A stretch of DNA of 37,326 nucleotides from an uncultured Opitutia bacterium. Lineage in GTDB: Bacteria; Verrucomicrobiota; Verrucomicrobiia; Opitutales; Opitutaceae. Under the pieces are notes generated by a model. That model had not been told where the DNA came from and ran no database searches. It saw only the letters and a program-made list of their open reading frames with translations. Made by a program: the position numbers and the translations under genes. The stretch is taken from the NCBI GenBank assembly GCA_903820035.1, contig CAIJFT010000247.1, positions 1-37,326 on the forward strand. The letters are read 5' to 3'. This document shows positions 18,907-37,326 of the stretch, in pieces (the stretch's first letter is position 1; each line of letters starts with the position of its first letter).

Positions 18907-19047
18907 CGGACCTGGGCGCGCCACGGCTTCCGGGTTGGTTTGCTCGTCGGCCATCGAAGGGAAACGCCCAGCCGGTCACTTCCGGTCGCGTGCCTTTGGG
19001 TTGATTCCAGGCGCCTGACGCCATTGGGTCGAGTGGCCCGCCGCCCC

Positions 19048-20452: not shown

Positions 20453-20669
20453 GGCCGGTTCGGCGCGGGAGGTTGGATTTTGGGCCTCTGGGTGGCGGCT
20501 CGGATCGGCCGGGGTCGTTCGCGGTTCTGCTTTGGAGGGGGGCGAACCGTTTCCGTGTTTTAGCGACATTCGGGTCATGGCCTTTTTTCTGCGGGATTCG
20601 GCGGGGTGAATCGTCTCAACTGGAAGGCCAACCGGCCAAACCTTGGTCCTTAACCCCTTTACTTTGACT
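20453..20669. promoter_or_regulatory. Likely promoter region of the STN receptor gene
   Basis: The 217 bases between the anti-sigma gene and the receptor start contain no gene and a lower-GC part from about 20540 to the start codon. In signalling trios the receptor gene is normally transcribed from a promoter recognised by the adjacent ECF sigma factor, and this is the only gap large enough. No -35/-10 pair could be assigned with confidence. Confidence 0.4.
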
Positions 20670-23600
20670 ATGAATAACCGGCTCGGTGGCATTGTGTTCT
20701 TAATCGGGCTTGCCCTTGGTGTGCTGCGTGGGACGGCGGCGGAGCCGACCGCGCGCGCCATTTCGATTTCCGCAGGGGAGGCGGTCGTCACGCTCAAGCA
20801 GTTATCGGCGCAATCGGGCGCCGAGGTCGTCTTTGCCACGAGTGCGGCAAAAAACGTGACGACGAACGCGGTGCAAGGCCGTTACTCCGCCCTGCAGGCG
20901 GCCACCAGCATGCTGACCGGGACCGGGCTTGCCGCCGCGCAGGATGAAAAGACGGGGGCCATCGTCATCGCCCGGCGGCTCGCGGTTCCCGCGGAAGCGG
21001 CGGGCGCGGGTCGCGTCGAACGCGAGGTCGTCCAATTGAACCCCTTCGAGGTTTCGGCCGGCCGGGACAACAGCTACGGCGCCCTTAATTCCAATTCGAT
21101 CACTTCGTTCACGACGGAGCTGAACAAGCTGCCGGTGAGCGCGGACATCTTCGACCAGACGTTCATGAACGATCTCGGCGTGATGAGCGTGGAGGAGATG
21201 GTGCAGGGCTTTGCCGCCGGCGCCGCGGTTTCATCCTCCAGTCCGGCCACGAGTGCCTCCACCCAGCAACAGTACGATCGCAACGGCTCCGCGTTGTCGC
21301 TGCGCGGTCTCGCCGCGACGTCGATTCTCCGCAACGGCTTTTATCCCGCCGCGCTCACCGGCGTCGGCTACACGACGAATTTCGACCTGCAACAAGTCGA
21401 AGTGATCTCCGGTCCCCAGTCGCTCCTTTACGGCGCCGGCGGTGGTGGCGGCGTGGTGAACTACATTTCCAAGCAGGCGAAGTTCAATTCTTCGCTGTCG
21501 GGGGAAGTTAAGTTCCAAGTCGACCAGTACGGGAAGAAGATGGGAACGGCCGACTTTAATCTGGGCGGTAAGCAGCTGGCGGTACGCATGGCGTTCATCA
21601 ATCAACAGGTCGGCGGACGCCGGTTGTTCATCGGCGGTCCGCTGGTCGGCGGCTATGTACAGGTCGCCGCCCGGCCGGTGCGGAACACGACGGTGCGCGT
21701 GGAATATGAAAAGACCTCGTGGAGCCGGATCAGCAACACCGATAACACCCTGACCGCCCTCAGCACCGCGAACGATGCCCGCAACGGGCAGTCGCTGCAT
21801 TATCTGCTGGCGACCAATCAGATCAACGCCGCCGCCAACGGCGCCCCCAGCGGGGCCGGCGTGATCGCCAACGGCAAGATCGACTGGGAGAATGTGGACT
21901 CCTTCGGCAGCGCGATGATCGGCGAACTCACGCGCAGTCAGTTTGTGACGGCGCAGATCGAGACGGTCTGGACGCCCTGGCTGTCCACGCGCATCGCCGG
22001 CGGCTACACCACCCGTTACAACAAGAAACTCGGCAACGGCGGCGTCGACTTCCTGGCGCCCAACGCCGCGGGCAATCCGCTCGGGGGCTGGGCGATGGAT
22101 TTCAAGAGCTCGGTCACCACCTCCTCGGCGCTGTGGGGGGGGAGCCAAGCGAAGAACCTCCGGGTCTCGGCGTTGTTGAGCAACGACCTGTTCGGAGGTC
22201 GCGCCAAGAGCCAGACCGTGTTCGGCGGCGATTTCACCGGCAGTGCCGCCGCCTCCTCGGGACTCTATTACGTCGCCGCAGACGCCAACTTCAATCCGGT
22301 CAACACCGGGCAGGCGACCAACAACGGCTTCAGCAACATCCCCGTGGTCTACTGGCCGGTCGCCAACGGGCCCAGCAAGTATCCTCTGATCGGCTACGAC
22401 GGCAGCAAGATCACGATCGCGGGCAAAAACTACGTGCAGGTCCCGACCAACGCGCCGGTCGCCGGCCTGGTTTCACCCAGCAATCCCCTCGGTCTGACGG
22501 GGAACTCCACCGGTTCCTGGCGCCCGACCCACGGCAATCAGAAGGGGGTTTATCTGGCCAACTTCACCAACTGGCTGGATGGCCGGCTGACCACGCTCGT
22601 CGGGGCGCGCCTGAGCCGTGTGTACACCCTGTTGTCGACGGAGAATAACTCGCGCACGCAACCCAGCCTGAACTCCATCAGTCAGGAGACCGGCAAGGAC
22701 TTCAGTGCCGGCGCCAACTTCCGGCTGCTGTCCTGGTTACGGCCCTACGTGCAATTCTCCGACTCGTTCAGCCCGCCCGCGGCCCTCAACCGCGATCCCT
22801 ACGGCGCCGCGCAAAACCCCTCCAAGGCGGTTGGAACGGAAGCCGGCATCAAGGTCACCAATCAGGACGGAACCTTGTCGGGTTCGGTCGGGGTTTACCG
22901 CACGAACGCCCAGAATGAGCAGACGTCGTTCTCCGTGAACATCACCGGTTTTATCAACCCGGTCGGCTTGAACGGCCGCCTCGGGGGCTCGCCCAGCAAC
23001 TGGATCAACGTCGACCGGAAGTCGGAGGGCCTGCAGGCCACCTTCACGGCGAATCCGCAGCCCAATTGGCGCATGCGCGTTTCCGGCAGCTGGCAGCACG
23101 CCACGAATCAGAGCAACAACAGCTTCGCCCAAGTGTATAACGATCAGTTCTACGCGAACAACCTCGGGCAGGTGACCTACAAGGATGGCGCCGTGGTCTA
23201 CGTGAGCTCCACCGGCACGCGTGCCACCGTCTCCACCGCCGGTACGGTCGGGGCCGTGCCGCTCACCCTCACCATGATGGGGACCCCTGGTAACCTCTAC
23301 TACGCGAATCAAGGTGCGGTGCATGGCGCGATCAACGCGTCGTCCGGCGCGGCCACGATCCTCAACGCCCTGAGCGATCCGCAGGTGGCGCAACACGGGC
23401 CGATTCTGACCGGCGCCGTCGGTTTGCCGATTGCCCAGATGCAGATCAAACCGAGCTTCACCCCGGTGGGTACGATCCCGATCATGACCAGCGGCGACCA
23501 GGTGCAGGGCTACCCGCAGATCGCGGTGAACTATGAGTCGGTGTACACCTTTGACCGCGGTCCCTTGAAGGGGCTCCGGGCCGGCGGCGCGTTCCAAGGC

Positions 23601-23888
23601 ATGTGGAAATACTCCGCGTTCTATTATTATCCGGTCGGCCTCAGCAACAACCCGACCAACCGGGCGCTCTATGCGTGGCCCACGCGCACGCTGTTCACCG
23701 GCATTTTCGGCTACGACTGGGCGTACCGGCGCTACCGGATTTCCCATCAGCTGAACGTGAACAACGTATTCAACCATTATCACATCGTGATCATCCCGAA
23801 TTACATCAACGGTTGGGCGGGCCCGAACAACGCGACGTTTGACACGCAGCCGCGCAGCTACGTCTTCTCGACGCGCGTCAGCTTCTAG
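20670..23888 (+). CDS. TonB-dependent transducer with STN domain (TBDR3)
   Basis: The ATG at 20670 starts a signal peptide (residues 1-24); the protein has 1072 residues. An STN signalling domain lies at about 26-101 (ISISAGEAVVTLKQLSAQSG, SMLTGTGLAA, AIVIARR). The motif V-V-Q-L-N-P-F-E-V at 110-118, immediately after STN, is the probable TonB box. The plug follows (YGALNSNSITSFTTELNK; LSLRGLAATSILRNGFYPA; GPQSLLYGAGGGGGVVNYIS) and the barrel ends FSTRVSF with C-terminal Phe. It is the only receptor here with an STN domain, which fits its place after the sigma/anti-sigma pair. It is in the same subfamily as the receptor at 2281-5211. Enzymes downstream suggest a glycan or oligosaccharide ligand (inference). 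Confidence 0.94.
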   Translation: MNNRLGGIVFLIGLALGVLRGTAAEPTARAISISAGEAVVTLKQLSAQSGAEVVFATSAAKNVTTNAVQGRYSALQAATSMLTGTGLAAAQDEKTGAIVIARRLAVPAEAAGAGRVEREVVQLNPFEVSAGRDNSYGALNSNSITSFTTELNKLPVSADIFDQTFMNDLGVMSVEEMVQGFAAGAAVSSSSPATSASTQQQYDRNGSALSLRGLAATSILRNGFYPAALTGVGYTTNFDLQQVEVISGPQSLLYGAGGGGGVVNYISKQAKFNSSLSGEVKFQVDQYGKKMGTADFNLGGKQLAVRMAFINQQVGGRRLFIGGPLVGGYVQVAARPVRNTTVRVEYEKTSWSRISNTDNTLTALSTANDARNGQSLHYLLATNQINAAANGAPSGAGVIANGKIDWENVDSFGSAMIGELTRSQFVTAQIETVWTPWLSTRIAGGYTTRYNKKLGNGGVDFLAPNAAGNPLGGWAMDFKSSVTTSSALWGGSQAKNLRVSALLSNDLFGGRAKSQTVFGGDFTGSAAASSGLYYVAADANFNPVNTGQATNNGFSNIPVVYWPVANGPSKYPLIGYDGSKITIAGKNYVQVPTNAPVAGLVSPSNPLGLTGNSTGSWRPTHGNQKGVYLANFTNWLDGRLTTLVGARLSRVYTLLSTENNSRTQPSLNSISQETGKDFSAGANFRLLSWLRPYVQFSDSFSPPAALNRDPYGAAQNPSKAVGTEAGIKVTNQDGTLSGSVGVYRTNAQNEQTSFSVNITGFINPVGLNGRLGGSPSNWINVDRKSEGLQATFTANPQPNWRMRVSGSWQHATNQSNNSFAQVYNDQFYANNLGQVTYKDGAVVYVSSTGTRATVSTAGTVGAVPLTLTMMGTPGNLYYANQGAVHGAINASSGAATILNALSDPQVAQHGPILTGAVGLPIAQMQIKPSFTPVGTIPIMTSGDQVQGYPQIAVNYESVYTFDRGPLKGLRAGGAFQGMWKYSAFYYYPVGLSNNPTNRALYAWPTRTLFTGIFGYDWAYRRYRISHQLNVNNVFNHYHIVIIPNYINGWAGPNNATFDTQPRSYVFSTRVSF

Positions 23889-23943
23889 GTTCAACCCCGG
23901 ATAACCTGATCTGCCTTCGTCGCTCCGCGCCCCTTCATCGACC

Positions 23944-25188
23944 ATGAGTGATCCCCGCGGCACGCCGCTCCCCACCGCGCCGCAAAATTCGGTGAGCGCT
24001 CCGCCCCGCCTCCTGTCGGTCGACGCCCTGCGCGGCTTCGACATGTTTTGGATCATCGGCGGCGAGGAAGTGGCGAAGGCGCTGCAGCCGCTGAGCGACG
24101 GCGCGGTGCTCACCGCGTTCGTCACGCAGTTGAAGCATGTCGAGTGGCAGGGCTTCCGTTTCTTCGACGCGATCTTCCCCCTGTTTCTTTTTTTGGTGGG
24201 CGTTTCGATCGTGCTCTCGTTCGAGCGCCAACGCGCGACCCTCGGTCGCGGGGCCGCACTGGTGCGGATTGCACGGCGCAGCGTGCTGTTGTTCGCCCTC
24301 GGGATTTTTTACTACGGCGGAATCACGCGGACCTGGCCGGATGTGCAGATCCTCGGAGTGTTGCCGCGCATCGCCCTGTGTTACTTTTTTGCCGCGTCGC
24401 TGTATGTGCTGGTGCCGCGCAAAGGCATTGTGGTCGCGGCCGTGCTGTGCCTCGCGGGCTACTGGGCGGCGATGACGTTCGTGCCGTTTCCCGACGTCAA
24501 TCTGGCGCACGGCACCGTCGGGAAGCGCGGCAGTCAGGCCGATGTGAAACCCGCCTCGGTTTTGACGGCGGGAGTGACGACCACGGTGCGGGGCACGTTT
24601 GAAGAGGGCCGCAACCTCGCGCACTACGTGGATTTTCGCCTGCTGCCGGGCAAGAAGCGGAATTTGCATTACACCAACGAAGGACTTTTGAGCACGGTGC
24701 CCGCGGTCGCCACGACCCTGTTCGGCATCATGGCGGGTTGGCTGCTGACAAGTCAGCGGTGGAGCGGGCGGCAGAAAGTGGCGTGGCTGCTGGGGGCGGG
24801 GGCCGTGGCAATCGGGTTGGGCCTCCTGTGGGGCCTGCAGTTCCCCGTCATCAAACGGCTCTGGACTTCGTCGTTCTGTCTGGTGGCGAGCGGCTTTGCC
24901 GCGATGCTGCTGGGCGTCTTCTACCTCGTGGTGGATGTGTGGTGCTGGCGGAAGTGGTGCACGCCGTTCCTGTGGATCGGCTCGAATGCCCTGACCGTTT
25001 ATCTGGCGGTCAACCTCGTCGATTTCGATGCGATCGCCGCCCGCTTCGTAGGCGGCGACTTGAAGGCTTATCTCGAACTGCAGCTCGCAAAGGGGAGCGG
25101 CGGACTCCTGATTGCCGCCATCGGGCTGCTCCTGCCGGTGTTGCTCGTGCGCTTTCTCTACCAGCGCAGGATCTTCATTCGCCTGTGA
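23944..25188 (+). CDS. NagX/HGSNAT-like membrane acetyltransferase (DUF5009 type)
   Basis: 414 residues with about ten hydrophobic segments. The N-terminus RLLSVDALRGFDMFWIIGG and the loop KHVEWQGFRFFDAIFPLFLF (H65, W68, D75, P79) are hallmarks of the DUF5009/heparan-alpha-glucosaminide N-acetyltransferase group. WIGSNALTVYL near residue 347 is the other conserved element. The human homologue uses acetyl-CoA to acetylate terminal glucosamine of heparan sulfate across a membrane; bacterial NagX-like proteins are linked to amino-sugar use. The role here is probably acylation of an imported amino sugar, but other acyl acceptors are possible. The gene is 55 bases after the receptor and 28 before the lyase gene, so co-transcription is likely. 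Confidence 0.87.
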   Translation: MSDPRGTPLPTAPQNSVSAPPRLLSVDALRGFDMFWIIGGEEVAKALQPLSDGAVLTAFVTQLKHVEWQGFRFFDAIFPLFLFLVGVSIVLSFERQRATLGRGAALVRIARRSVLLFALGIFYYGGITRTWPDVQILGVLPRIALCYFFAASLYVLVPRKGIVVAAVLCLAGYWAAMTFVPFPDVNLAHGTVGKRGSQADVKPASVLTAGVTTTVRGTFEEGRNLAHYVDFRLLPGKKRNLHYTNEGLLSTVPAVATTLFGIMAGWLLTSQRWSGRQKVAWLLGAGAVAIGLGLLWGLQFPVIKRLWTSSFCLVASGFAAMLLGVFYLVVDVWCWRKWCTPFLWIGSNALTVYLAVNLVDFDAIAARFVGGDLKAYLELQLAKGSGGLLIAAIGLLLPVLLVRFLYQRRIFIRL

Positions 25189-25216
25189 ACGCACCCCTCG
25201 GCCGGTTCTTCGCGCG

Positions 25217-26116
25217 ATGAGAGGCGTACCGCTCGCGGGTAGATTCTGGGGTACGGTCGCCCTCGTCGCGTGCGGGCTCGGTCTCCCGGTTTTGAGCCGA
25301 GGCACAGCGGCAGAGCGACACCTGACCGCGAAACAGGTGTTTGAATCCAAGGAGGTCGTGATTTTCCACGACGACTTTCGGAGCGGTGGCTTGGAGAAGT
25401 GGAATCTGTCCGAGGACGATCGTTATCGTCTGGGGCGGGCGGATCCGGAACGCCTGCGGGTCCAGGGCGCGCCCGGTTTGGCCGGGGACCGGAAGGCGGT
25501 CCGGTTTTCCGTCCCGCGGGCGGCGGACTCGTTCCGCGCCGAACTCTCGCTGCCGAGCGAGCAGGGATTCAACGAGCGCTGGTATGGCGAGAGTCTGCTG
25601 GTGCCGGAGGACTGGGTTTTCGATGCCGCCAAGGGCCATGACATTGTCATGCAGTGGCACGCGGTTCCGGGAAACGGCCGCGCGACCTATCCCAACTTGG
25701 CGATCTCAATCCAGGACTCGCATTGGTTCATCCAGCAGAATTTTGGCGCCACCGAGCGCAAAGCCACCCGGGTAAAACGAAAACTGGATGAGCCGGTGCG
25801 GCGGGGCGCTTGGTTGGCGTGGGTGGTCCACGCGAAATGGTCGCCGCGGGACGACGGGCTGATTGAGATCTGGTTGGACGGCAAACGCGTCGTGGAAATC
25901 AAGGGCCCGAATGTTTACACGACCATCGGGGTCGAATATACGCCGTATCTTAAAACCGGCATCTATCATCCCGCGTGGCATCTGGACGTACCGGCGAAAC
26001 GCGCGGCGTTCGCCCAGGAAGTACCGACGGTCACCAGCAAGGTGGTGTGGGTCGCCGAGGTGCGCATCGGCCGTGCCCAGGCGACCTATGCGGATGTGGT
26101 CCCCCGGCTGAAGTAG
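25217..26116 (+). CDS. Secreted polysaccharide lyase, heparinase-I fold (PF14099 type)
   Basis: The ATG at 25217 gives 299 residues with a signal peptide at 1-31. The beta-jelly-roll lyase pattern is clear: VIFHDDFRSGGLEKW near 48-62, DSFRAELSL (R107), ERWYGESLLVPEDW at 120-133, MQWHAVPG with Q146 and H148, GAWLAWVVHAKWSP at 197-210, IEIWLDGKRV at 216-225, and YLKTGIYHPAW at 244-254. K246 and Y250 keep the spacing of the catalytic Lys and Tyr I recall from Bacteroides heparinase I. Such enzymes cleave uronate-containing glycans by beta-elimination; members act on heparin, glucuronan and others, so the substrate is open. Location next to a heparan-type acetyltransferase homologue makes an amino-sugar/uronate glycan attractive. 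Confidence 0.85.
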   Translation: MRGVPLAGRFWGTVALVACGLGLPVLSRGTAAERHLTAKQVFESKEVVIFHDDFRSGGLEKWNLSEDDRYRLGRADPERLRVQGAPGLAGDRKAVRFSVPRAADSFRAELSLPSEQGFNERWYGESLLVPEDWVFDAAKGHDIVMQWHAVPGNGRATYPNLAISIQDSHWFIQQNFGATERKATRVKRKLDEPVRRGAWLAWVVHAKWSPRDDGLIEIWLDGKRVVEIKGPNVYTTIGVEYTPYLKTGIYHPAWHLDVPAKRAAFAQEVPTVTSKVVWVAEVRIGRAQATYADVVPRLK

Positions 26117-26154
26117 CCGCGCCGTCACGGGCCAACCGCGGGGAATGCCGCGTG

Positions 26155-26210
26155 TGGCGCCGGCCCGCCCACCACCGGGAAATCTAATAATCGCGGGACG
26201 TTGGCGCCGG
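26155..26210. repeat. Pair of 9-base direct repeats upstream of the esterase gene
   Basis: TGGCGCCGG occurs at 26155-26163 and again at 26202-26210, with an AT-rich stretch (AATCTAATAATCG, 26181-26193) between them. They lie in the longest gap of this operon (156 bases) and might mark a separate promoter or operator for the esterase. The core GGCGCC is palindromic and GC-rich, so chance is possible. Confidence 0.25.
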
Positions 26211-26272
26211 AAACCGCTTCGTTCGTGCGTTTCTTTCGGTTGTCGTTTTGTTCGGGCGCACCCGATTTCCCC

Positions 26273-27469
26273 ATGCTGTTTTACCCTTCACGGTTGAGTC
26301 TGCTTATTTTCGGCGGTGCCGCTCTGGCGCTGTCTCCATTTTTGGCGGGGGCGGATGCGGTTCCGGCGGTGCCACCCGGCCCCAGCCCGGCGGTCGGCAA
26401 GGCTGCGGCTCGGCCGCAACCGCCAACCCGCTCGCCGGATGCGCCCGGCGCACCGCGGTTCACGCGGCTCGACGGGAAGGCGGGGGTGAATCCGCCGATG
26501 AATGCCGTCGGTAATTTCGTGATTGGTCCGGACTATGTGCCGGCGCCGGAGCTCAAGGTGGTCGCCGGCGTGCCGCAGGGTAAGGTGCAGCAGTTCACGC
26601 TGAGCTCGAAGGACAGCAAATTCTACAACCCGGGGATCGCCCGCACGGCTCCGCCAACGGCGGACCCGGCGAATCCCAAGACCCAGATCGTGGCGATCCA
26701 GCCCGTGGACTACCAGCGGACCATCACGGTGTACATCCCGGCGCAGTATGTCCCCGGGACACCGGCGCCGATTTTGGTCACGCACGACGGTCCGCAGCAG
26801 GGGCGGGCGGATATGAATCTCGCCCATGTCCTCGACAACCTCATCGCGCAGAAACGCGTGCCGGTGCAGATCGCGATCTCGATCGCAAACGGCGGTGGCG
26901 ATGCGCAGGGCAGCGAACGCGGCCGCGAGTACGACACGATGTCGGGGAAGTTCGCCGAATTTATCGAGGCCGAGGTGCTGCCGGCGGTGGAGAAGACCTA
27001 CGGCGTGACGCTGACCAAGGACCCCGAGGCCCGCGCGACAATGGGCAGCAGTTCCGGCGGTGCCGCCGCGTTGATCATGGCGTGGTATCACCCGGAGTTA
27101 TACCGGCGCGTGATCACAACGTCGGGCACGTTTGTGAACCAGCAGTGGCCGTTTAACCCGGAGACGCCGGGCGGGGCGTGGGATTTTCACGCGCAACTGA
27201 TTCCGCAGAGTGCGGCGAAGCCGATCCGGCTGTGGATGGGTGTTGGCGATCGCGACAACTACAACCCGAATACGATGCGCGACGGCATGCACGACTGGGT
27301 CGAGGCCAACCACCGGATGGCCGCCGTCCTGGCGGCGAAGGGCTACCGTTACCAATACGTTTTTGCCCTGAATGTCGGCCACGGCATGGGTCCGGCGCGC
27401 CAACAGATTCTGGCGCACGCGCTGGAGTGGGTGTGGCAGGACGACGCGGCCGCAAAGTCGCGGCGTTAG
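26273..27469 (+). CDS. Secreted esterase of the alpha/beta-hydrolase (Fes/CE1-like) group
   Basis: The ATG at 26273 gives 398 residues with an N-terminal signal peptide (1-26) and a Pro-rich linker to about residue 60. The esterase domain spans about 140-390: RTITVYIPAQYVPGTPAPIL and HDGPQQGRADM at its start, the nucleophile elbow MGSSSGGAAAL with S260, the acid probably D326 or D328 in GVGDRDNYN, and the catalytic H370 in LNVGHGMG. This is the enterochelin-esterase/carbohydrate-esterase 1-like fold often found in glycan loci, where it removes acyl or feruloyl groups. It ends the sigma-receptor-lyase cluster and is predicted to deacylate the glycan before or after lyase action. The exact ester is unknown. 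It converges with the sulfatase gene at 27647, with 177 bases between and no clear terminator. Confidence 0.85.
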   Translation: MLFYPSRLSLLIFGGAALALSPFLAGADAVPAVPPGPSPAVGKAAARPQPPTRSPDAPGAPRFTRLDGKAGVNPPMNAVGNFVIGPDYVPAPELKVVAGVPQGKVQQFTLSSKDSKFYNPGIARTAPPTADPANPKTQIVAIQPVDYQRTITVYIPAQYVPGTPAPILVTHDGPQQGRADMNLAHVLDNLIAQKRVPVQIAISIANGGGDAQGSERGREYDTMSGKFAEFIEAEVLPAVEKTYGVTLTKDPEARATMGSSSGGAAALIMAWYHPELYRRVITTSGTFVNQQWPFNPETPGGAWDFHAQLIPQSAAKPIRLWMGVGDRDNYNPNTMRDGMHDWVEANHRMAAVLAAKGYRYQYVFALNVGHGMGPARQQILAHALEWVWQDDAAAKSRR

Positions 27470-27646: not shown

Positions 27647-29032
27647 TTACTTCGTCACCGGACCGCTGTTGTGGCCCCAGGCCGGCTCGATCATGCCGCG
27701 GTTCATGGTTTCCCAGACCGCCGCGAGTTCCTGTAGTTTCGCGGGGTTGGCGCCGGCCAGATTCTTCGTTTCGCCGGGGTCCGACTTGAGATGGTAGAGC
27801 TGCGCTCCGGCGGTGGTGCCGGTGCCGCCGCGGACCCGGGCCTCGGCTTCGTTGAGCGGCGCCTTCACCAATTTCCAATCCCCCCGGCGCAACGCGATCT
27901 GCTGACCGAAGCGCCAGTATAAGGCTTCGTGGGGTTCGCCGGCGTTCTTCCCGGTGAGGTAGGGCAGGAGATTCACGCCGTCCAATTGCCACTCTGGCGG
28001 CGCGGTGACGCCAGCCGCCCCGAGGGCGGTGGGGAGAACATCGAGTTGGATGACCGGTCGGTCGTCGACCTTGCCGGCGGGCAGGTGGCCTTTCCATTGC
28101 ATCACGAACGGGACGCGGATGCCGCCTTCCCAGGTCTGGGATTTGAACCCGCGCAACGGGCCGTTGTTGGACGTGGTTGAGGCGGTTGGGCCGCCGTTGT
28201 CGCTGAAGAAGACGATGAGCGTGTTTTCCTCCTGTCCGAGTTCGCGGATCCGCCCGACAACGCGGCCGATGGCGTCGTCCATCGCCGCTTGCATCGCCGC
28301 ATACGTGCGGCGCTTCGGGTCGGTCAGGTGCGCGAATCGCGCCAGGACTTTCTCTGGCGCCTCGAGCGGCATGTGGACCGCGTTGAAGGCAAGATAGCAA
28401 AGCCACGGCGTCGTGCGGGCTTGTGCGATGAACTCCACCGCGGCGCGGGCAAATGCGTCGGTCGTGTAGTCGATGGTTTTCACCGGCGTGGTCCCGCTCA
28501 GGATCGGATTGAACGTCTCGCCCTCGGCGTCGAGGTAATCGTGCTTCCCCCCGAGAAAACCGAAGTACGCGTCGAACCCGCGCTTGAGCGGGTGAAACTG
28601 CGGCGCGTAGCCGAGGTGCGATTTCCCGAACCAGCCCGTGGTATAACCGAGCGCCTTGAACCGGTTGCCGATGGTCTTCTCCCCGACCGGCAGCCCGATG
28701 GTCGCCGGCGTGACTTCGGCCTCGCCGGGATTGAACTCATGGCCGAAGCGCTGCTGGTAGCGGCCGGTCATCAGGCCGGCGCGGGTCGGACTGCAGTACG
28801 GCCCGGTGACATAGCCGTTGGTGAAACGGACGCCGTTGGCCGCGAGTTGATCGAGGTGGGGCGTGGGGATGTCCCGGGTGAAACCCTGGAAACCGAGTTC
28901 GCCGTAGCCGAGGTCGTCGGCGACGATGATCAGCACGTTGGGCCGGCGTTCGGCGGCCGGCAGCGAGCTGGCGAGCAGTGGCAGCAGCAACGCCGGGAGC
29001 AGCAGTCTGAGCGAAAAAGAAGCTCGGGGCAT
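27647..29032 (-). CDS. Secreted type I sulfatase (sulfatase A)
   Basis: 461 residues with signal peptide 1-27. N-terminal metal-binding D39-D40 (IVADDLGYGELG), the sulfatase signature C80-S-P-T-R84 followed by AGLMTGRY, the GKSHLG motif, and FFSDNGGPT supply the expected active site of a formylglycine-dependent sulfatase; C80 would be converted to formylglycine. No maturation enzyme is in the window. Length is normal for a compact exported sulfatase of sulfated-glycan loci. It is the last gene of a minus-strand cluster, 22 bases downstream of a TonB-dependent receptor. The sugar and sulfate position cannot be inferred. Confidence 0.93.
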   Translation of the reverse strand: MPRASFSLRLLLPALLLPLLASSLPAAERRPNVLIIVADDLGYGELGFQGFTRDIPTPHLDQLAANGVRFTNGYVTGPYCSPTRAGLMTGRYQQRFGHEFNPGEAEVTPATIGLPVGEKTIGNRFKALGYTTGWFGKSHLGYAPQFHPLKRGFDAYFGFLGGKHDYLDAEGETFNPILSGTTPVKTIDYTTDAFARAAVEFIAQARTTPWLCYLAFNAVHMPLEAPEKVLARFAHLTDPKRRTYAAMQAAMDDAIGRVVGRIRELGQEENTLIVFFSDNGGPTASTTSNNGPLRGFKSQTWEGGIRVPFVMQWKGHLPAGKVDDRPVIQLDVLPTALGAAGVTAPPEWQLDGVNLLPYLTGKNAGEPHEALYWRFGQQIALRRGDWKLVKAPLNEAEARVRGGTGTTAGAQLYHLKSDPGETKNLAGANPAKLQELAAVWETMNRGMIEPAWGHNSGPVTK

Positions 29033-29054
29033 GGGAAGGAAAGGCGGGGGCCGT

Positions 29055-32000
29055 TCAGAGATCGAACGACGTGCTCAGGATGAACTGGCGCGGATCGATG
29101 ATGCGGTAGGCGTAGGTCGAACCGTCGGGGTTGACGGCGACCCGCTGCAGGCGGCCCTTTTCCAAGGCATCGCGCACATTCAGCTGAACGCGGGCGCGGA
29201 CCCGGTCGCCGAAGAGGCGCAGACTGTAACTCGTCGACCAATCGACGGCGAACCGAGCCCGGTCGTAGACGGGCTTGGTGGGATCGAGCGAGCGGACGAC
29301 ACCGTCCGACTCCGGGGCGGCCCCGAGGAAGCCGATCGCGGCCTTGTCCTGCCAGCGCAGCGCGCCGCCGACGCCGAAGCCCTTTAGCTTGCCCTCGGAG
29401 AACGTGTAATTGGTGAGCGCATTCCAACGCCACTCGCGGACCTGACTGCGCGGCTTGCCCTGATTCGCGACCGCGAGGGCGTACGGGGCGAGCAGCTGGG
29501 TGAGGTAAAAATCCTTCGCGTTGTTCACGGTGCCGGAGAGGTTCGTCGTGGCGATCGACGTCCACCAGAGCTGGCCGTTGTCATCCTTCAACGTGGTCCA
29601 GACCGGCAGGCGGGTGGTCCAATAGTTCAACTCGTCGGGGGCGATGTTGGAATCGATCGCCTGCTGCTGCGCGACGTTGAACTTGATCCGCCAATTGCGG
29701 GTGGGGTTGTAGGCGACCTCCACCTCGTAGCCGCGCGAGGTGACGTCCGTCAGGCCGTCCGTGCTCAAACCGGTGATGTTATCACCGAGCCGGGCGAGCC
29801 AGGATTCCGGAACCTGCATGATGCCGGCGGCGGCGGTGAGCACTTGGGCCGCGCTGGGTGAGGTGATGCCCTGCTTGGCGAACCGGCTGCGCGCCAAATT
29901 TTCCGCCCACGGGCGGAGGGCGAAGCCGAAGTTGGAGCCGTTGTTTACGCGGCCCTCGAGGCGCAGCGTGCGCTGGCCGATCGTGCCGGATTCGTTGCCG
30001 CGGGAGTTGAGGTCGGTTGATTGGTAGCGGTTGATTTTCACGCTCAGCTTGTTGTCGAGGGCCGTGAAGCTGACGCCGTAGTCCTTCCCGGTGCCGCTGG
30101 GATTGGGCAAAGGATCGCCGAAGAGCGTCTGCAACGCCGGCGCCGGGGCAAAGCTGTCGGAGCGGTTGTAGAAAATATTCAGCCAACGCGTGGGCTTGGC
30201 GACGATGCCGAAGGTCTTCGTGTCGCCACTTTGGTCGATCCACGGATTCCACACGTCCAGACCGGCGTTGGTGATGCGGCCGGCCGTGGCGTCGTACGTA
30301 TTGCCGTTCGACTGCCGCGTGCGCTGCCGGTCGCGGCGGAAGCCGTAGGTGGTGACGATCCGGTCGTTGAGGAAATAGCTCTGCAGCGTGGCGCTCAGCG
30401 TGCGCACCTCGACCCGCGTGCTGTTCGTGCCCGTGATGGGTAGATCGGCGACGGTCGTCGGTTCGTTGACCCATTGGCCGGTGAGATTGTTATACCACGT
30501 CAACGTGTGCTGCCCCGTGATATCGTTGATGGGCGACGGACCGGTGTCGAAGTTGGTGCCCTGCGTGTCGCCGACGTAATAACGTTGGACGGCAGCCCGG
30601 GGGGCGCCGATTCCCTGGAGGGTGATTGCGGCCCAGCCGGTGGGATTATAAACGGTCTCGGCGTCGCGGAAGTTGGTGGTGTCGCTGCGGCGCGTTTCGC
30701 CGTGGAGCCCGAGGCGCTGCTGGCCGATCCAGGAGAGCCACGTGGGCGCGTTCTTGGGGGTAAACTGATAGGCTAGGTCGGCATTCTGCGTGTCGCCGAT
30801 TTCCGGCGTGATGCCACGGAGCGGAGTGACGGCCTGGATGTAGGGCCGCTGGAAAAACGGATTCGGCCGGCCGTCGAGCAGCTTTTCGTTCACGTCGACG
30901 TAAAGGACCGAGTCGGTGTTATCGAGGAATTGAAACTGCGTGCGGGAGAACTCCTGGCGGAACCAGCCGGCGCGGGCGGCGACGACGTGTTGCGGCGTGC
31001 GCAGGAGGTAGTGCTCCAGTTCGAAGCGATAGGTGTTGGCGGTGTCGATCGCGTGATTCGCGGCGGAGGCGTTGATCGACGACCAGTCGTAGATCGATTT
31101 GTCCCGGAGCGCGGGTGCGATGTAGAGCGGGTAGAGGCCGCCCTTGTTGCGGATCAACGACGTTCCGCTTTCGAGATAGCGCACGGCGCTGTTCTGGGTG
31201 AACGGGGTCGGCGTGCCCGTGGTGATCGCGTTGGCGATTTGGTTCTGAGTGTAGAACTTGACCTGACTGTCTTCAATCCAGGCGGACAGACGGCCGCCGA
31301 GGTTGGTCGCGCCGGTCATGAGGCCGGCGGGCAGGTTGGCGTCCTGGGCGACGGGGAAAGGTCCGGATTTCACGCCGTTGCGCGTGACGGTCTGCGTGGT
31401 CGGGTCCCACGACGGCTTGCCGGAGGCGATCCACTCGGAGACTGCGTCGCGCGGGGTGAGGGCGTTGGGCCGGCGGGCGAAATTGGTGTAGCGCTCCGCG
31501 CTGCCGGTGATCGTGGTGTTGGGCAGGGGACGGGCGAGGAATGAGAGCTGCCCGCGGCGGATCCGTTCAGAGGAGGGCTTGCGGGTGAAGCCCTTGGTGT
31601 CGTCGACCGCGGCGATACGGAGCGCGAGTTTGTTCGCGATCAGCGGGCGGTTGAGATCGAGGCTTTCGCGATGGCCGCCAAAGCTGTCCAGGCGGAAGTT
31701 AAACCCGGACACGGCGCGGGTCGCGTTGGCCTGTGTGGGCACGAGGTTGACCGAGCCGGCGCTGTTGCCGATGCCGAAGAGGCTCGAGTTGGGGCCGCGG
31801 TTGATTTCGACCGAGTCGATGTTGTACAGATCGAGCGGAAGCTTGGCGTTGCTCGCAAAGTTGCCGATGGCGGTATTGGCGCCGAACGTCGAATTCGTGT
31901 TGGTGCCGGTGCCGGAGGCGCCGGAGCCGCCGATGCCGCGGATGCGGTTTGCGGTCTGGGGATCGGACGAGACGTTATCCTGCACGCCGCCGGTGCGGTT

Positions 32001-32396
32001 GGTGTTGAATTGGGTAAAGTTGCCCGTGCCCTCGGTGTTCGCCTCGTAGAGGAACACGTCGTTGATATCGATCGCCGCCGTGTCGATCAGCTGCTGCTTG
32101 GTGACGACCGTGATTGAAGAAGCGAGATCCTCGAGCTTTGAGTTGAGGCGGGTGCCGGAGAGCGTGTTGAACGCCTGGTAGCCGCGGTCGTCGGAGATGA
32201 CCTGGAACGGCGAGAGTTGCACGGGCTCGTCCCCGGTCCGGGCGGACGCGGCGGGGCCGGGCTTGGCCGCGGTCGCTTGCGCGAAAGCGGATGCGGTGAA
32301 GGCCGAGGCTAGGGCCAGGGCGCGCAAGGCGCCGCGGAGCGGACGTGCGGGCAGGGAAATCGGGCGGTCAAACCGCGGGTTGGGACAGGTCGTCAT
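29055..32396 (-). CDS. TonB-dependent receptor (TBDR4), TLAGSR type
   Basis: 1113 residues. A basic N-terminal arm precedes the hydrophobic signal segment (about 22-40, ending SAFAQA), so a start further in is possible though no other ATG fits. V-Q-L-S-P-F-Q-V at 59-66 is the probable TonB box; the plug opens YQAFNTLSGTRLNSKLEDL and includes VEINRGPNSSLFGIGNSAGS. The barrel ends DPRQFILSTSFDL. There is no STN domain. The C-terminal 45 residues are nearly the same as those of the partial receptor at the window edge, and the plug resembles the receptor at 5473. Flanked by sulfatases, it probably imports sulfated or desulfated oligosaccharides (inference). Confidence 0.94.
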   Translation of the reverse strand: MTTCPNPRFDRPISLPARPLRGALRALALASAFTASAFAQATAAKPGPAASARTGDEPVQLSPFQVISDDRGYQAFNTLSGTRLNSKLEDLASSITVVTKQQLIDTAAIDINDVFLYEANTEGTGNFTQFNTNRTGGVQDNVSSDPQTANRIRGIGGSGASGTGTNTNSTFGANTAIGNFASNAKLPLDLYNIDSVEINRGPNSSLFGIGNSAGSVNLVPTQANATRAVSGFNFRLDSFGGHRESLDLNRPLIANKLALRIAAVDDTKGFTRKPSSERIRRGQLSFLARPLPNTTITGSAERYTNFARRPNALTPRDAVSEWIASGKPSWDPTTQTVTRNGVKSGPFPVAQDANLPAGLMTGATNLGGRLSAWIEDSQVKFYTQNQIANAITTGTPTPFTQNSAVRYLESGTSLIRNKGGLYPLYIAPALRDKSIYDWSSINASAANHAIDTANTYRFELEHYLLRTPQHVVAARAGWFRQEFSRTQFQFLDNTDSVLYVDVNEKLLDGRPNPFFQRPYIQAVTPLRGITPEIGDTQNADLAYQFTPKNAPTWLSWIGQQRLGLHGETRRSDTTNFRDAETVYNPTGWAAITLQGIGAPRAAVQRYYVGDTQGTNFDTGPSPINDITGQHTLTWYNNLTGQWVNEPTTVADLPITGTNSTRVEVRTLSATLQSYFLNDRIVTTYGFRRDRQRTRQSNGNTYDATAGRITNAGLDVWNPWIDQSGDTKTFGIVAKPTRWLNIFYNRSDSFAPAPALQTLFGDPLPNPSGTGKDYGVSFTALDNKLSVKINRYQSTDLNSRGNESGTIGQRTLRLEGRVNNGSNFGFALRPWAENLARSRFAKQGITSPSAAQVLTAAAGIMQVPESWLARLGDNITGLSTDGLTDVTSRGYEVEVAYNPTRNWRIKFNVAQQQAIDSNIAPDELNYWTTRLPVWTTLKDDNGQLWWTSIATTNLSGTVNNAKDFYLTQLLAPYALAVANQGKPRSQVREWRWNALTNYTFSEGKLKGFGVGGALRWQDKAAIGFLGAAPESDGVVRSLDPTKPVYDRARFAVDWSTSYSLRLFGDRVRARVQLNVRDALEKGRLQRVAVNPDGSTYAYRIIDPRQFILSTSFDL

Positions 32397-32439
32397 GGGG
32401 ATGCTTGGTTAAAAGGCGAATGGTCGGAGCGGCGGCGGA

Positions 32440-33936
32440 CTACTGTCCGGCGCCGGGGCGGGTGAAGCCGCGGTTGCGGGCTTCACCGAGGATTTGGCGG
32501 AGGGTGGCGGAACGGTCGAGTTGCGCGGGCCGGGTGTCTTTGGTTTCGGCCGGATCCTCGCGCAGGTTGAAAAGTTCGTCCTGCCGCGGACCGGCGGCTT
32601 GGCGTTTCGCCGCGGCCTCGATGGTCCGCTTGTTGCGGTCGGAGGCGTAGGGAGGGGGATTGGCGCGCTCGATTAATTTCCAGTCGCCTGCGCGGATGGC
32701 GTACGTGGCGTCGGCCGCCTGCAGGATAACATGATCGCGGACCGGCGCGCCTGGTTTCACTTCAGTAAAGGCACGAAGCACATCAAAGCTGTCCTCGGCT
32801 TGTCCCGGCGGCAGCGGAGTCTTGAAGACCCCCGCAAACGTCGCGAGCAGATCGGTCAGGCAGATGACCTGGTCGCTGACCGTGCCAGCCGGCACGCGAC
32901 CGGGCCAGCGGACGAGGAAGGGTTCGCGGAAGCCGCCTTCCCATTCGCTATGCTTGCCGCCACGCAAGGATCCGTTGAGGGCGAGGCCCGCTTTCATTGC
33001 GACGGCCGAATTTTCGAACCGTTCCTCGGTGACGCCGCCGTTGTCGCTGGTGAAGATCACCAGCGTGTTGTCGGCCAGTTTCAGGCGGTCGAGGGTTTCC
33101 AGGATGCGGCCGACCGTCCAGTCCAACTCGCGGATGAAGTCGCCATATTTCCCATACGGGCTGCCGGTGAAGCGCGGATTTGGCTGTACGGGCTCATGGA
33201 CGGCGTTCGGTGCGTAGTAGACCAAGAAAGGTTGATCCCGCTGCTTTTCGATCCAGCCGGTCATCTGCGCCGTGAGGGTCTCCATTACGTGCTCAATCTT
33301 CCATGTCGTGCGGGCGGCTCCGACCTCCGCCGTGACGGCGGATTTCGGGGCGGGGGTTGTCTCGCTGCGGAAGGGTTCCCCTAACTCGTCGTCATCGACG
33401 AAGCCGTGGGGCGCGGCGGGCAGATTGGCCGCCATACCGAAGTAGCGATCGAAACCAACCTGCCGCGGTCCGGGTGCGAGCGGTTTCTTCCAGTCGGTGA
33501 CATTGCCCGTTGTCAGGCCGAGGTGCCATTTCCCGAACATCGCGGTCTGGTAGCCTTGACTCTTACAGAGGGAGGCGATCGTGAGGCGGCCCGGCTCGAT
33601 GTGCAGCGGCGCATCGGGCGGAAGGACTTCGCCGTCCTTGATGGCGGTGCGCCAAAAATAGCGGCCGGTGATGACACCGTAGCGGGAAGGCGAACATACC
33701 GAGCCCGGGGCGTAGGCTTGAGTGAAACGCCTCCCCTCGCGGGCGAGGCGATCGAGGCTGGGCGTCTGGACCCGCGTCGCGCCGTAGGGCGTCGTGCTGC
33801 CCCAGCCGAGATCGTCGGCGAGGATGAGCACGATATTGGGCCGCTCGGGTGACGTCGCGGCCGCGGACCAGCGCGGGGCGAGGAGGACTAGCACGGCGAG
33901 AGCCGGAAGCAGGGCGGAACGGGGGGAGAACTTCAT
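32440..33936 (-). CDS. Secreted type I sulfatase (sulfatase B)
   Basis: The ATG at 33936 is chosen over the TTG one codon upstream, giving 498 residues with a signal peptide at 1-26. LILADDLGWGSTTPYG carries the metal-binding Asp pair, C81-S-P-S-R85 followed by YGVITGRY is the formylglycine signature, FGKWHLGL the conserved Lys/His motif and FTSDNGGVTEE the second metal site. GFDRYFGM and SEWEGGFREPFLVRWPG are typical of arylsulfatase-A-like enzymes. It lies 43 bases upstream of the receptor gene at 29055-32396 and 80 bases after the next sulfatase, in the same direction. It differs enough from the other two sulfatases to suggest another sulfate position. Confidence 0.93.
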   Translation of the reverse strand: MKFSPRSALLPALAVLVLLAPRWSAAATSPERPNIVLILADDLGWGSTTPYGATRVQTPSLDRLAREGRRFTQAYAPGSVCSPSRYGVITGRYFWRTAIKDGEVLPPDAPLHIEPGRLTIASLCKSQGYQTAMFGKWHLGLTTGNVTDWKKPLAPGPRQVGFDRYFGMAANLPAAPHGFVDDDELGEPFRSETTPAPKSAVTAEVGAARTTWKIEHVMETLTAQMTGWIEKQRDQPFLVYYAPNAVHEPVQPNPRFTGSPYGKYGDFIRELDWTVGRILETLDRLKLADNTLVIFTSDNGGVTEERFENSAVAMKAGLALNGSLRGGKHSEWEGGFREPFLVRWPGRVPAGTVSDQVICLTDLLATFAGVFKTPLPPGQAEDSFDVLRAFTEVKPGAPVRDHVILQAADATYAIRAGDWKLIERANPPPYASDRNKRTIEAAAKRQAAGPRQDELFNLREDPAETKDTRPAQLDRSATLRQILGEARNRGFTRPGAGQ

Positions 33937-34016
33937 CAACAGGGAACGGAAGCGTAAACGAGGCGGAGGGCGGCGATGCAGTCCGGCGCGGGCTTACCCG
34001 CGCCGGTCGATCCGTC

Positions 34017-35480
34017 TCAAACTTTCTTCTTCTTCCTGCCCACGATCTCGTCCGTTCGCGCCTGATTTTTCGGCACTTTCACGACGGCAAAGTCCTGCGG
34101 CTTGACGTCGTCGGCGAGCATGGCGGCGACGAGCGGGTCGCGGTTTTCCGCACCCCAGTGGCGGAGCCGTTCGCGCATGGCCAGGAGGGTCTCGCGGTGC
34201 GCGGGGTCGCGGGCGAGGTTGGTCATCTCGCCGGGATCTTTTTCAAGATCGACGAGCGACTCCCGGTTCTGGCCGTGGGCGTAGACGCAGTACTTGTAGC
34301 GGTCCGTGCGGATCATGCGACCCTCCGTGGTCGGGACATTGCCGGCCACGGGAAAGGTCTGGCTCATGTTGTTCTGCACGACGACATCCTCCCGCCAGGT
34401 CGCGACCGGTTCGCCGAGCGCGAGCGGACGGAGGCTCAGGCCACGGAGCTTGGCGGGCCGGGGCACGCCGGCGAAGTCGAGCATGGTGGGCAAAATGTCC
34501 GTGCCGGTATTGATGAATTTTTCCGCGACGCGCCCGGCGCGCTGGCCCGGGGTGCTGACGATCAGGGGGACGCGCGACGACTCCTCATAGAAAACCGTTT
34601 TCTGGTTGAAACCGTGGGCGCCGGCGCACTCACCGTGGTCGGCGGTAAAGACGATCAGCGTGTTTTCCTCGAGGCCCGCGGCTTTGAGCGCGGTGAGGAC
34701 CTTGCCGATCTCGGCGTCCACTTTCTCGATGAGGCGGTAATAGCCCCAGCGCAGAGTCTGCCAGCGTTCAGGCGAAAAATTACCCACCGGGAATGCCGGG
34801 TTGGCGTGATACCCGGCGCGGATTTGCGTCATGGTGTCGGGCTCGCCGCGGGGCGGAGCCAGGTTAGCGGGAGCGGGCGGGAGTTTTTCGGCGGACGGCG
34901 GCTGTCCGATGGGACCGTTGTTCAGCTCCTGATCGCGCGCGAGTTCGCAGACGTTGTGCGGGTTGAGAAAACTGACGACGAGGAGGAAGGGCTTGTCGTG
35001 CTTGGTGCCGAGGAACTTTGCGGCGTGGGCGGCGTTCTCCGCGTCCATGTGTCCGGTATCCAGCGTTTCAAAACCATGCGTCTGGGTGGCGCCCTCGTCG
35101 TAGGCGAGATGCCATTTACCGAAGTACGCGGTCTGGTAGCCGGCCTGCCGGAAATAGGTGCCCATCGTGACAAACTCCGCGGCATCGAGCTTCGTCTTTG
35201 TGTTGTCGGTGACGCCGGTTTGGTGCGGGTAACGACCGGTGAAGATCGAATTCCGCGCCGGCATGCAGAGCGGATTCGGCGTGTAAGCGCGACTGAAGTA
35301 TGTGCCGCGCGCGGCGAGTCCGTCCAGTGCCGGCGTTTTGAGGTAGCGATCACCCATGCGGCAGCTCAGCGCCTCGGCTGAGTGCTGATCCGTCATGATG
35401 AAGAGCACATTGGGCTGCGCGGCCGCGGCGGCGGCGATGATGACAGTGGCCGCAAGCGCGGACCGGAGGTGGTGCAACAT
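34017..35480 (-). CDS. Secreted type I sulfatase (sulfatase C), MTDQH subgroup
   Basis: 487 residues, signal peptide 1-21. The first metal site reads FIMTDQHSAEALSC (D31-Q32 instead of the Asp-Asp of the other two), and the formylglycine signature is C72-M-P-A-R76 followed by NSIFTGRYPHQTG, still matching C-x-P-x-R. FGKWHLAY and FTADHGECAGAHG complete the active site, with Asp-His in place of the Asp-Asn of the neighbours. These substitutions are a known alternative in the sulfatase family, not a defect. The C-terminus is Lys-rich (GRKKKKV). It lies 48 bases downstream of the BNR_4-like gene, in one probable operon with the other sulfatases. Confidence 0.93.
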   Translation of the reverse strand: MLHHLRSALAATVIIAAAAAAQPNVLFIMTDQHSAEALSCRMGDRYLKTPALDGLAARGTYFSRAYTPNPLCMPARNSIFTGRYPHQTGVTDNTKTKLDAAEFVTMGTYFRQAGYQTAYFGKWHLAYDEGATQTHGFETLDTGHMDAENAAHAAKFLGTKHDKPFLLVVSFLNPHNVCELARDQELNNGPIGQPPSAEKLPPAPANLAPPRGEPDTMTQIRAGYHANPAFPVGNFSPERWQTLRWGYYRLIEKVDAEIGKVLTALKAAGLEENTLIVFTADHGECAGAHGFNQKTVFYEESSRVPLIVSTPGQRAGRVAEKFINTGTDILPTMLDFAGVPRPAKLRGLSLRPLALGEPVATWREDVVVQNNMSQTFPVAGNVPTTEGRMIRTDRYKYCVYAHGQNRESLVDLEKDPGEMTNLARDPAHRETLLAMRERLRHWGAENRDPLVAAMLADDVKPQDFAVVKVPKNQARTDEIVGRKKKKV

Positions 35481-35528
35481 GAGCTGAGGGGATGGTTCCG
35501 TTTGAGGGGTAAAGTGGAGCGGGAGCGA

Positions 35529-36995
35529 TCAGGGCTCGTCGTCGCCCAGACCGGCTTTCTTTTTCCGTTTGGCCTCCGCCTTGGCGGTATTCGGCGGCGG
35601 GAGTGACTTGATTTGCTCGAGCCGTTCGCCGAGGTAACTGGCCGCGGGCCGGCCCAACGGTCCGTGTTCACCGACCAGATACATCGGCCGGTACAGGTGA
35701 CCCAGGGCCGGATTTACGCCGGCCAACAACATCTGGGCATCGGGATGCGCGTTGCGGATCATGGCCGAGGTCTGGAAGCTTTGGTCGGCGGAGGAGATCA
35801 GCACGGCGTCCTTGGCCCAGGTGCGGCCGCCGTCGGTCGTTTTCCACCAACCCACTTCGTCGCGCCCCGGGTTGCCCAGGCCGAGGATCATCCGGGTCGT
35901 CGTGGGTGAATCGACGACAAAGTCACCGTCGTTCACGTGACCCATCCCCGCGGCGACTTCCACCGGCTTTTGCCAGGCCTTTCCGTCCCAGCGATAATAA
36001 CGCACCTTCTGCGCAAACGGGAAACACAGCTGGGGCCGGCCCTCGGCGTCGACATGGGTCGTGCCGTGGCTGGGGCGGTCCTTGCCGGTGACCTCGATGC
36101 GCGCGAGGCGATCGGCGTCTTCCTTGGTGACCGGCGCCGCCAGACTCTGCCCTTGCACGTTGCGCCAGGAGCCATCACGGCAATCCATCACCATGTAGTA
36201 AGTGTCCTGCCGCTGCGCGTTATGTTTGGGGTTGGCGCAGGGATGGTAGACGTACGAGGCGGTGATCGTGTCGCCCTTGCCCTGGTCGAACCAGGCGTAC
36301 CAGGAATCATCCACCGTCGGTGAAGCGGCGCTCACCTTGTGTTTCAGCACCGAGACCGGGGCGGAGAAGGTGCGGCCATCGTCCACCGATTTCTGGTAAA
36401 CCCAGTCACTGCGGTGGCCGCCGTGGCGGTAAAACAAATACAGGTCGCCGTTGGCGAGTTTGATCCACTGGTTGTAGGTGCCGAACGGCGGGATGTTGTC
36501 CAGCGTCCGCCACGCGGAAATGTCGCCGGGCTTCTGCGAGACGACGTGGGTCATCTTGCCCTTGGTGCCCATGAAGAATTCCCCGAGCGGGTTCGGGCCG
36601 TACTTGGCTTCGCCGCCGTGGGAGCCGAACACGAGATGAATATAGCCTTGGCGGTCGACGATGAGCGCCGGTTTGCCGTGGTTATCAAGCTCGCCCTTGT
36701 CGATCTGGTCGGGCGACTTGCCCATGGTATTGATTCCGGCCTGAACGGGCCCGATCCACGTTCCCGTGGCGTGGACGTAGGCGGCCACGTACGGGTCTTC
36801 GTGCGGACCTTGGTAGGCGACATAGGTGACGCCCTGGTAGTGCTCGCCCGCGGGATGCTGCAGCGTGCTGAGGACGTTGCCGTAGCCGTTGTCGGCGAAG
36901 TGATCGACGTTGGCGCCGGCGCAAAGGCTGCCGGCGGCCAGTGCGCCCAGCCACCAGAAGATCGGGCGGCACGAGGAAGGACGAGAGCGTTTCAT
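35529..36995 (-). CDS. Secreted BNR_4-family protein, possible PL24/PL25-type lyase
   Basis: 488 residues with a signal peptide of about 28 (ending SLCAGA). The sequence follows the BNR_4 (PF15892) beta-propeller pattern: YQGVTYVAYQGPHEDPYVAA, then LDNHGKPALIVDRQGYIHLV, VFGSHGGEAK, TYNQWIKLANGDLYLFYRHG and a later HVNDGDFVVDSPTTTRMILG. BNR_4 proteins include the ulvan lyases of PL24 and PL25, where two His, a Tyr and an Arg around these positions act in catalysis (from memory); here the His of LDNHG and GSHGG and the Tyr/Arg of TYNQW and FYRHG are present. Lyase activity on a sulfated uronate-containing polysaccharide is therefore plausible but unproven. It sits between a receptor and two sulfatases. 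The C-terminus is charged and Lys-rich. Confidence 0.8.
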   Translation of the reverse strand: MKRSRPSSCRPIFWWLGALAAGSLCAGANVDHFADNGYGNVLSTLQHPAGEHYQGVTYVAYQGPHEDPYVAAYVHATGTWIGPVQAGINTMGKSPDQIDKGELDNHGKPALIVDRQGYIHLVFGSHGGEAKYGPNPLGEFFMGTKGKMTHVVSQKPGDISAWRTLDNIPPFGTYNQWIKLANGDLYLFYRHGGHRSDWVYQKSVDDGRTFSAPVSVLKHKVSAASPTVDDSWYAWFDQGKGDTITASYVYHPCANPKHNAQRQDTYYMVMDCRDGSWRNVQGQSLAAPVTKEDADRLARIEVTGKDRPSHGTTHVDAEGRPQLCFPFAQKVRYYRWDGKAWQKPVEVAAGMGHVNDGDFVVDSPTTTRMILGLGNPGRDEVGWWKTTDGGRTWAKDAVLISSADQSFQTSAMIRNAHPDAQMLLAGVNPALGHLYRPMYLVGEHGPLGRPAASYLGERLEQIKSLPPPNTAKAEAKRKKKAGLGDDEP

Positions 36996-37071
36996 GGTTC
37001 GAAAGGTGAGGGCGACGATGCGGGTCGCGGGGTCGATCGCGAATCATAACGGCAGCGCCCATTGCGGCGCG

Positions 37072-37326
37072 TTACAGGTCGAAGCCCAGGCTGAGGATGA
37101 ACTGCCGCGGATCGATGATCCGGTAGGCGTAGGTGCTGCCGTCGGGATTAACGGCGACACTTTGCAGCCGGCCGCCCTCGCAGGCGTTGCGCACATTGAG
37201 GCGGGCCTTCGCGCGAATTTTGTCGCTGAAGAGCCGGAATTTGTAGCCGGCCGACAGATCCATGTAATAGCGCGCGCGGCTCCAAAACGGTTTGTTGATG
37301 TCGAGATCGAGCACGGCACCGGCGAA
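37072..37326 (-). CDS. TonB-dependent receptor C-terminus (TBDR5), partial at window edge
   Basis: Only the last 84 codons lie in the window; the gene enters from the right edge. The visible part is the final barrel strands, ending VNPDGSTYAYRIIDPRQF and then ILSLGFDL, with the aromatic/hydrophobic C-terminal signature of outer-membrane proteins. It is almost the same as the end of the receptor at 29055-32396, so the two are close paralogues. It precedes the BNR_4-like gene by 76 bases and is probably the first visible gene of the sulfatase operon. Confidence 0.9.
   Translation of the reverse strand, partial: FAGAVLDLDINKPFWSRARYYMDLSAGYKFRLFSDKIRAKARLNVRNACEGGRLQSVAVNPDGSTYAYRIIDPRQFILSLGFDL

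Follow-up and report, generated by a model that had tools for sequence, protein, structure and literature searches.

The ulvan utilization loci in the literature compared here are marine. As described in the available text of two reports (PMC8511951, PMC9096561), Formosa agariphila degrades ulvan by combining lyases with sulfatases; the characterized ulvan sulfatases belong to subfamilies S1_25, S1_7, and S1_8 (PMC9096561), and the lyase products are subsequently cleaved by glycoside hydrolases of family GH88 or GH105 (PMC8511951). Here we describe a locus with the same lyase-plus-sulfatase strategy from an uncultured bacterium of the Opitutaceae. It spans positions 27647 to 37326 of contig CAIJFT010000247.1 (C247), the entire 37,326 bases of which form the window analyzed. 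The F. agariphila locus differs in its PL28 and PL40 lyases, its GH105 and GH3 enzymes, and its S1_7, S1_8, and S1_25 sulfatases. We interpret the Opitutaceae locus as a TonB-dependent carbohydrate utilization locus for an ulvan-type sulfated rhamnose-uronate polymer, with a probability of roughly 0.65.

A frame check of the window confirmed six open frames, all on the minus strand, separated by short gaps as originally predicted. In transcription order, these encode the C-terminal end of a TonB-dependent receptor (TBDT2; 37326-37072), a BNR_4 protein of 488 residues (36995-35529), the sulfatases SulfC (35480-34017; 487 residues) and SulfB (33939-32440; 498 to 499 residues), a complete TonB-dependent receptor of 1,113 residues (TBDT1; 32396-29055), and a third sulfatase, SulfA (29032-27647; 461 residues). 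The intervening gaps are 76, 48, 77, 43, and 22 bases; SulfB begins with TTG followed by an ATG codon, and use of the latter would widen the third gap to 80 bases. The combination of a predicted ulvan lyase, sulfatases, and an outer membrane transporter is that of an ulvan utilization locus. No SusD-type gene occurs among the six; the genome was not scanned with a SusD model. The G+C content of the locus (0.649) is close to that of the window (0.655) and thus gives no sign of recent import. Scans for sigma-70 promoters and terminators yielded no excess of sites over shuffled sequence.

An indication of substrate comes from the BNR_4 protein (BNR_4 domain, E value of 1.2e-20). Compared with the sequences of solved structures at E values up to 1, it retrieved only two matches, both of them PL25 ulvan lyases: 5uam (PLSV_3936; residues 28-450, 6.6e-117) and 5uas (4.9e-116). 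When mapped through the 5uam alignment, all 11 named PL25 residues are identical in the window protein, comprising the catalytic residues His123, Tyr188, Arg204, His143, and Tyr246, the binding residues Asn122 and Lys125, and the zinc residues His208, His264, Cys266, and His278 (numbering from the available text of PMC13193363, with His143 placed by offset from that of PMC8955879). The original prediction of a lyase-like protein can therefore be sharpened to PL25, and the concern that the protein might stand apart from known lyases and lack catalytic residues did not materialize. By sequence, this protein is a PL25-type ulvan lyase with an intact predicted active site. In 32 of the 35 sequences compared, all five catalytic residues are present; two sequences are partial, and the lyase of one relative (G231) has Trp in place of Arg204. 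Lys125 is replaced by Arg in 13 of the 33 sequences with a letter at that position. In a phylogenetic tree, for which the software warned of long branches, the window protein pairs with that of relative G080 (support of 99/95) within a set of 11 sequences (99/99), while three others (from G188, G189, and G194) join the plasmid-encoded enzymes of Alteromonas and Catenovulum (99/99).

All three sulfatases contain a PF00884 domain and a formylglycine-type motif: CSPTR in SulfA (2.1e-63), CSPSR in SulfB (1.4e-52), and CMPAR in SulfC (1.6e-51). Their metal sites differ as anticipated, with DD and DN in SulfA and SulfB and DQ and DH in SulfC. Placement here refers to the nearest solved structures rather than to subfamily assignment, as SulfAtlas models were not used. 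On that basis, SulfA lies near S1_19 entries, its nearest structure being 6prm (1.9e-104), which is classed as S1_19 in the available text of PMC9096561. SulfB is nearest to 7oze (9e-87) and 6s20 (3.4e-81), with entries named S1_15 ranking fifth and eighth. SulfC is nearest to 3b5q (named yidJ; 1.3e-50) and 5g2t (2-O glycosaminoglycan sulfatase; 3.1e-49), with the ulvan S1_25 entry 6hr5 in fifth place (5.5e-46). Judged by nearest solved structures only, none of the three falls among sulfatases for nonpolysaccharide sulfate esters, a possibility raised at the outset. The genome as a whole yields 107 PF00884 matches in 6.05 Mb, some of which are split pieces of one frame.

The neighbors of SulfC homologues are better evidence of substrate than its nearest structures. 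Two homologues (41 to 42% identical) lie on a plasmid stretch of Halocatena marina (NZ_CP109982.1, 92000-140000) that also holds BNR genes, GH88, GH78, a formylglycine-generating enzyme, and L-rhamnonate genes; this stretch is perhaps an archaeal ulvan-type system. In a record of Bacteroides finegoldii, another homologue (40%) has genes for GH88, DUF4962, and L-rhamnose mutarotase in its vicinity. Because such neighbors recur in two other lineages, a rhamnose-uronate substrate is favored. The BNR genes of H. marina are 32 to 33% like the window PL25 protein.

The original prediction also proposed two paralogous TonB-dependent receptors. TBDT1 is complete and gave a Pfam match to the Plug domain alone (2.2e-6), with no STN domain detected. 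Because the contig stops at 37326, the second receptor is reduced within the window to an open frame of 84 C-terminal residues plus a stop codon, a fragment that on its own matched no Pfam family. The suggestion to look beyond this end proved fruitful. With the complete TBDT2 of a relative as the query, the best match in the same genome was found on contig C395 (14881-18396) and reached the last base of that contig. The last 141 bases of C395 are identical, in reverse complement, to the end of the window (37186-37326). Besides these two ends, no place in the genome matches this stretch at full identity; a third match is 71% identical over 114 bases. Exact overlaps of this kind are what assemblers leave at graph branch points, and thus C395 and C247 likely adjoin, with TBDT2 spanning both. 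Only through C395 does the paralogy emerge: joined in this way, TBDT2 is 55% identical to TBDT1 over 1,063 aligned positions.

The C395 portion of TBDT2 carries an STN domain (PF07660, 1.9e-8) and a Plug domain. Divergent from it on C395 are genes for an extracytoplasmic function (ECF) sigma factor (Sigma70_r2, r4_2) and for FecR (1.1e-15). An STN domain with adjacent FecR and ECF sigma factor genes characterizes FecA-type signaling receptors, and by sequence this arrangement is that of a receptor relaying the presence of its ligand to a sigma factor. C395 also carries a Gfo/Idh/MocA oxidoreductase gene and a HEAT-repeat gene; both are again found near PL25 in a single relative (G224), which is too thin a basis for interpretation. 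In another relative (G098), the TBDT2 sequence is divided between two open frames (672 and 514 residues; L045:6390-9950). The TBDT1 gene is 84 to 85% identical at the DNA level to its counterparts in three relatives of other genera; in the same comparison, stretches aligned over at least 1 kb were 70 to 76% identical for PL25 and 69 to 71% for SulfB. The TBDT1 gene is either unusually conserved or recently shared.

From the gene order, domain content, PL25 membership, sulfatase motifs, and likely link to C395, all read from sequence, we infer a substrate, secretion, regulation, operon transcription, and division of labor as follows. The polymer or a fragment of it would bind TBDT2, whose STN domain would signal through FecR to the divergently encoded ECF sigma factor and so switch on the operon. 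The secreted PL25 lyase would cut by beta-elimination at uronate, giving oligomers with an unsaturated uronate end. Sulfate esters would be taken off by SulfC, SulfB, and SulfA, and fragments would be imported through TBDT1 and TBDT2. The functions first proposed, namely, import, desulfation, and lyase-mediated cleavage of a sulfated glycan containing uronate, thus gain support from a PL25-type lyase with a predicted intact active site.

PL25 homologues (E value of 1e-30 or better) were found in 27 of 252 genomes of the family including that of the window, i.e., in 26 of 251 relatives. In an order-wide draw, 9 of 372 genomes had a match at 1e-40; two of these lay outside the family, one with an internal TGA. 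Fifteen of the 16 named PL25 loci are verrucomicrobial, and the other, from Caulobacterales, is 33% identical. Loci were compared for 25 of these 26 relatives, giving counts that are lower bounds because many contigs are short. SulfC (at least 78% identical) directly follows PL25 in 14/25 and is nearby in one more (67%); SulfB (at least 52%) is present in 14/25, SulfA (at least 60%) in 4/25, TBDT1 (87 to 88%) in 3/25, and TBDT2 (50 to 51%) in 5/25. In seven genomes (G060, G070, G071, G077, G188, G189, and G194), the sequence near PL25 runs on, either lacking the set or containing more distant sulfatases. Two relatives have two PL25 copies. In G080 these are on different contigs, and in G078 they flank a SulfA-like gene (32%), one copy being cut by the contig end (L047:2-820 and 2531-3952).

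Several observations weigh against an ulvan-type locus with the proposed regulation. Judged by nearest solved structures, SulfA resembles S1_19 and SulfB S1_15 rather than the characterized ulvan subfamilies; both are nearest to carrageenan- and galactose-type sulfatase entries, and the nearest named entries of SulfC include the glycosaminoglycan 2-O-sulfatase. The join between C395 and C247 bridges a contig end and is likely rather than established, and homologues of the ECF sigma factor and FecR occur near PL25 in only 4/25 relatives. The named relatives seem to be freshwater organisms, in whose habitat ulvan would not be the usual glycan. Finally, no match to GH88/GH105 (PF07470) was found in the window's own genome, which is 98% complete, and removal of the unsaturated uronate without such an enzyme is not explained by the ulvan-type reading.

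The habitat of the relatives bears on the strongest rival account, in which the same machinery serves another freshwater rhamnose-uronate polymer (e.g., a sulfated cyanobacterial or green-microalgal exopolymer, or rhamnosyl-glucuronate side chains) rather than the ulvan of Ulva. Titles and sample codes suggest that the named relatives are lake, reservoir, or pond metagenome-assembled genomes; the tie of code to lake is inferred, and a project of this type sampled Medard, Most, Milada, Zurich, Rimov Reservoir, and Jiricka pond (available text of PMC9166423). In addition, the clade of the window PL25 protein is separate from the two plasmid-encoded enzymes of seaweed-associated or marine origin, sulfated polysaccharides are reported from some freshwater cyanobacteria (available text of PMC5615132), and beta-propeller or related lyases acting on the rhamnose-glucuronate bonds of gum arabic have been published (available text of PMC8377490). 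However, all named PL25 residues are kept, with no sign in the sequence of an altered substrate, and a lake habitat is suggested for the relatives but not for the window's own genome. We regard this account as a serious contender, at somewhat under even odds.

The missing GH88/GH105 step allows another account, in which the cell would depolymerize and desulfate the glycan to obtain sulfate or fragments, with the unsaturated uronate left for other organisms. The lack of a PF07470 match extends to 10 of the 26 PL25-bearing relatives, while the other 16 do show matches (weak ones only in three), which speaks against such partial use; PL25 and a PF07470 match share one contig in 2/26. In two plasmid-borne loci, from bacteria of seaweed or seawater, PL25 is immediately followed by a GH88 gene. 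Elsewhere in the window's own genome are three GH78-type and three KduI-type matches, which count in favor of the ulvan-type reading; the KduI-type matches also suggest that free 5-keto-4-deoxyuronate is usable. The two receptors likewise speak for uptake, and an unrecognized enzyme could remove the uronate. We consider partial use unlikely. Under an ulvan-type reading, the unsaturated uronate is either removed by a different enzyme or not used at all.

One candidate for this step was examined and rejected. The PL25 loci of four relatives (L050:6773-8980, L064:14642-16843, L052, and L072) encode a secreted-looking protein of 736 residues, for which no Pfam, NCBIfam, or PDB sequence match was found. 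It occurs in 18 of 252 family genomes, six of which also carry PL25. The best Foldseek matches of its modest model (mean pLDDT of 62) were alginate and glycosaminoglycan lyases composed of (alpha/alpha) toroid and beta-sheet domains, although TM-scores were low (for the top six matches, at most 0.31 over both lengths). By this model, the protein may perhaps represent a new lyase or dehydratase family. The window's own genome contains no match to it, so it cannot account for the missing step there.

The original prediction named ulvan or a glycosaminoglycan as examples, and an ulvan-type glycan is favored: although SulfC matches the 2-O glycosaminoglycan sulfatase entry, many glycosaminoglycan sulfatase entries are among the matches of SulfA to SulfC, and an N-acetyltransferase-like gene (match below cutoff) lies on the other strand (23944-25188), we set aside a heparan or chondroitin locus as highly improbable because the lyase matches PL25 entries only and the neighbors of SulfC relatives favor ulvan, and no glycosaminoglycan lyase family was found by Pfam among the locus proteins.

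A second glycan-type gene set lies tail to tail with the locus on the plus strand (16699-27469). It encodes a TPR protein, an ECF sigma factor, FecR, a TonB-dependent receptor (20643-23888), a NagX-like membrane protein, a PF14099 polysaccharide lyase (25112-26116), and an esterase. The PF14099 protein was considered as a second ulvan lyase, but its sole clear match among solved structures is a glucuronan lyase (9.7e-9), and it was left out of the locus.

In sum, the sequence describes a putative ulvan-type TonB locus in the Opitutaceae that combines a signaling receptor with a PL25 clade of its own and an unusual set of sulfatases, and for which no GH88/GH105 was found. In the open-license literature, judged by titles and the beginnings of abstracts, we found no paper on PL25 in freshwater Opitutaceae or on their use of ulvan, which does not prove absence. 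If the relatives are truly lake genomes, ulvan-type sulfated glycans would be a freshwater carbon source, which would help explain the abundance of sulfatases in freshwater Verrucomicrobia. More speculatively, and with doubt prevailing, a lake-dwelling Opitutaceae branch with its own PL25 clade and distinct sulfatases may consume a freshwater sulfated rhamnose-uronate polymer, finishing without GH88/GH105, for example through a hydrolase not yet described or through oxidation. The absence of GH88/GH105 thus poses a direct biochemical question, namely, what removes the unsaturated uronate.

Among known systems, the freshwater Verrucomicrobia of PMC5615132, in the available text, share the phylum, richness in sulfatases, and TonB receptors adjoining degradative genes; the word "ulvan" is absent from the main text of that report. 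Loci for sulfated methyl pentoses in marine Verrucomicrobiota (available text of PMC8857213) likewise share the phylum and contain S1_15 and S1_19 sulfatases, which that text ties to fucose-type loci; "PL25" does not appear in the main text. The ulvan locus on plasmid pAlt76 of Alteromonas sp. 76-1 differs in having GH88 straight after the lyase, alpha-L-rhamnosidases, GH43, and a rhamnose mutarotase, and its sulfatases are at most 30% identical to SulfA, SulfB, and SulfC. Nevertheless, it shares with the Opitutaceae locus a PL25-type BNR_4 lyase (41 to 43% identical), sulfatases, and two TonB receptors.

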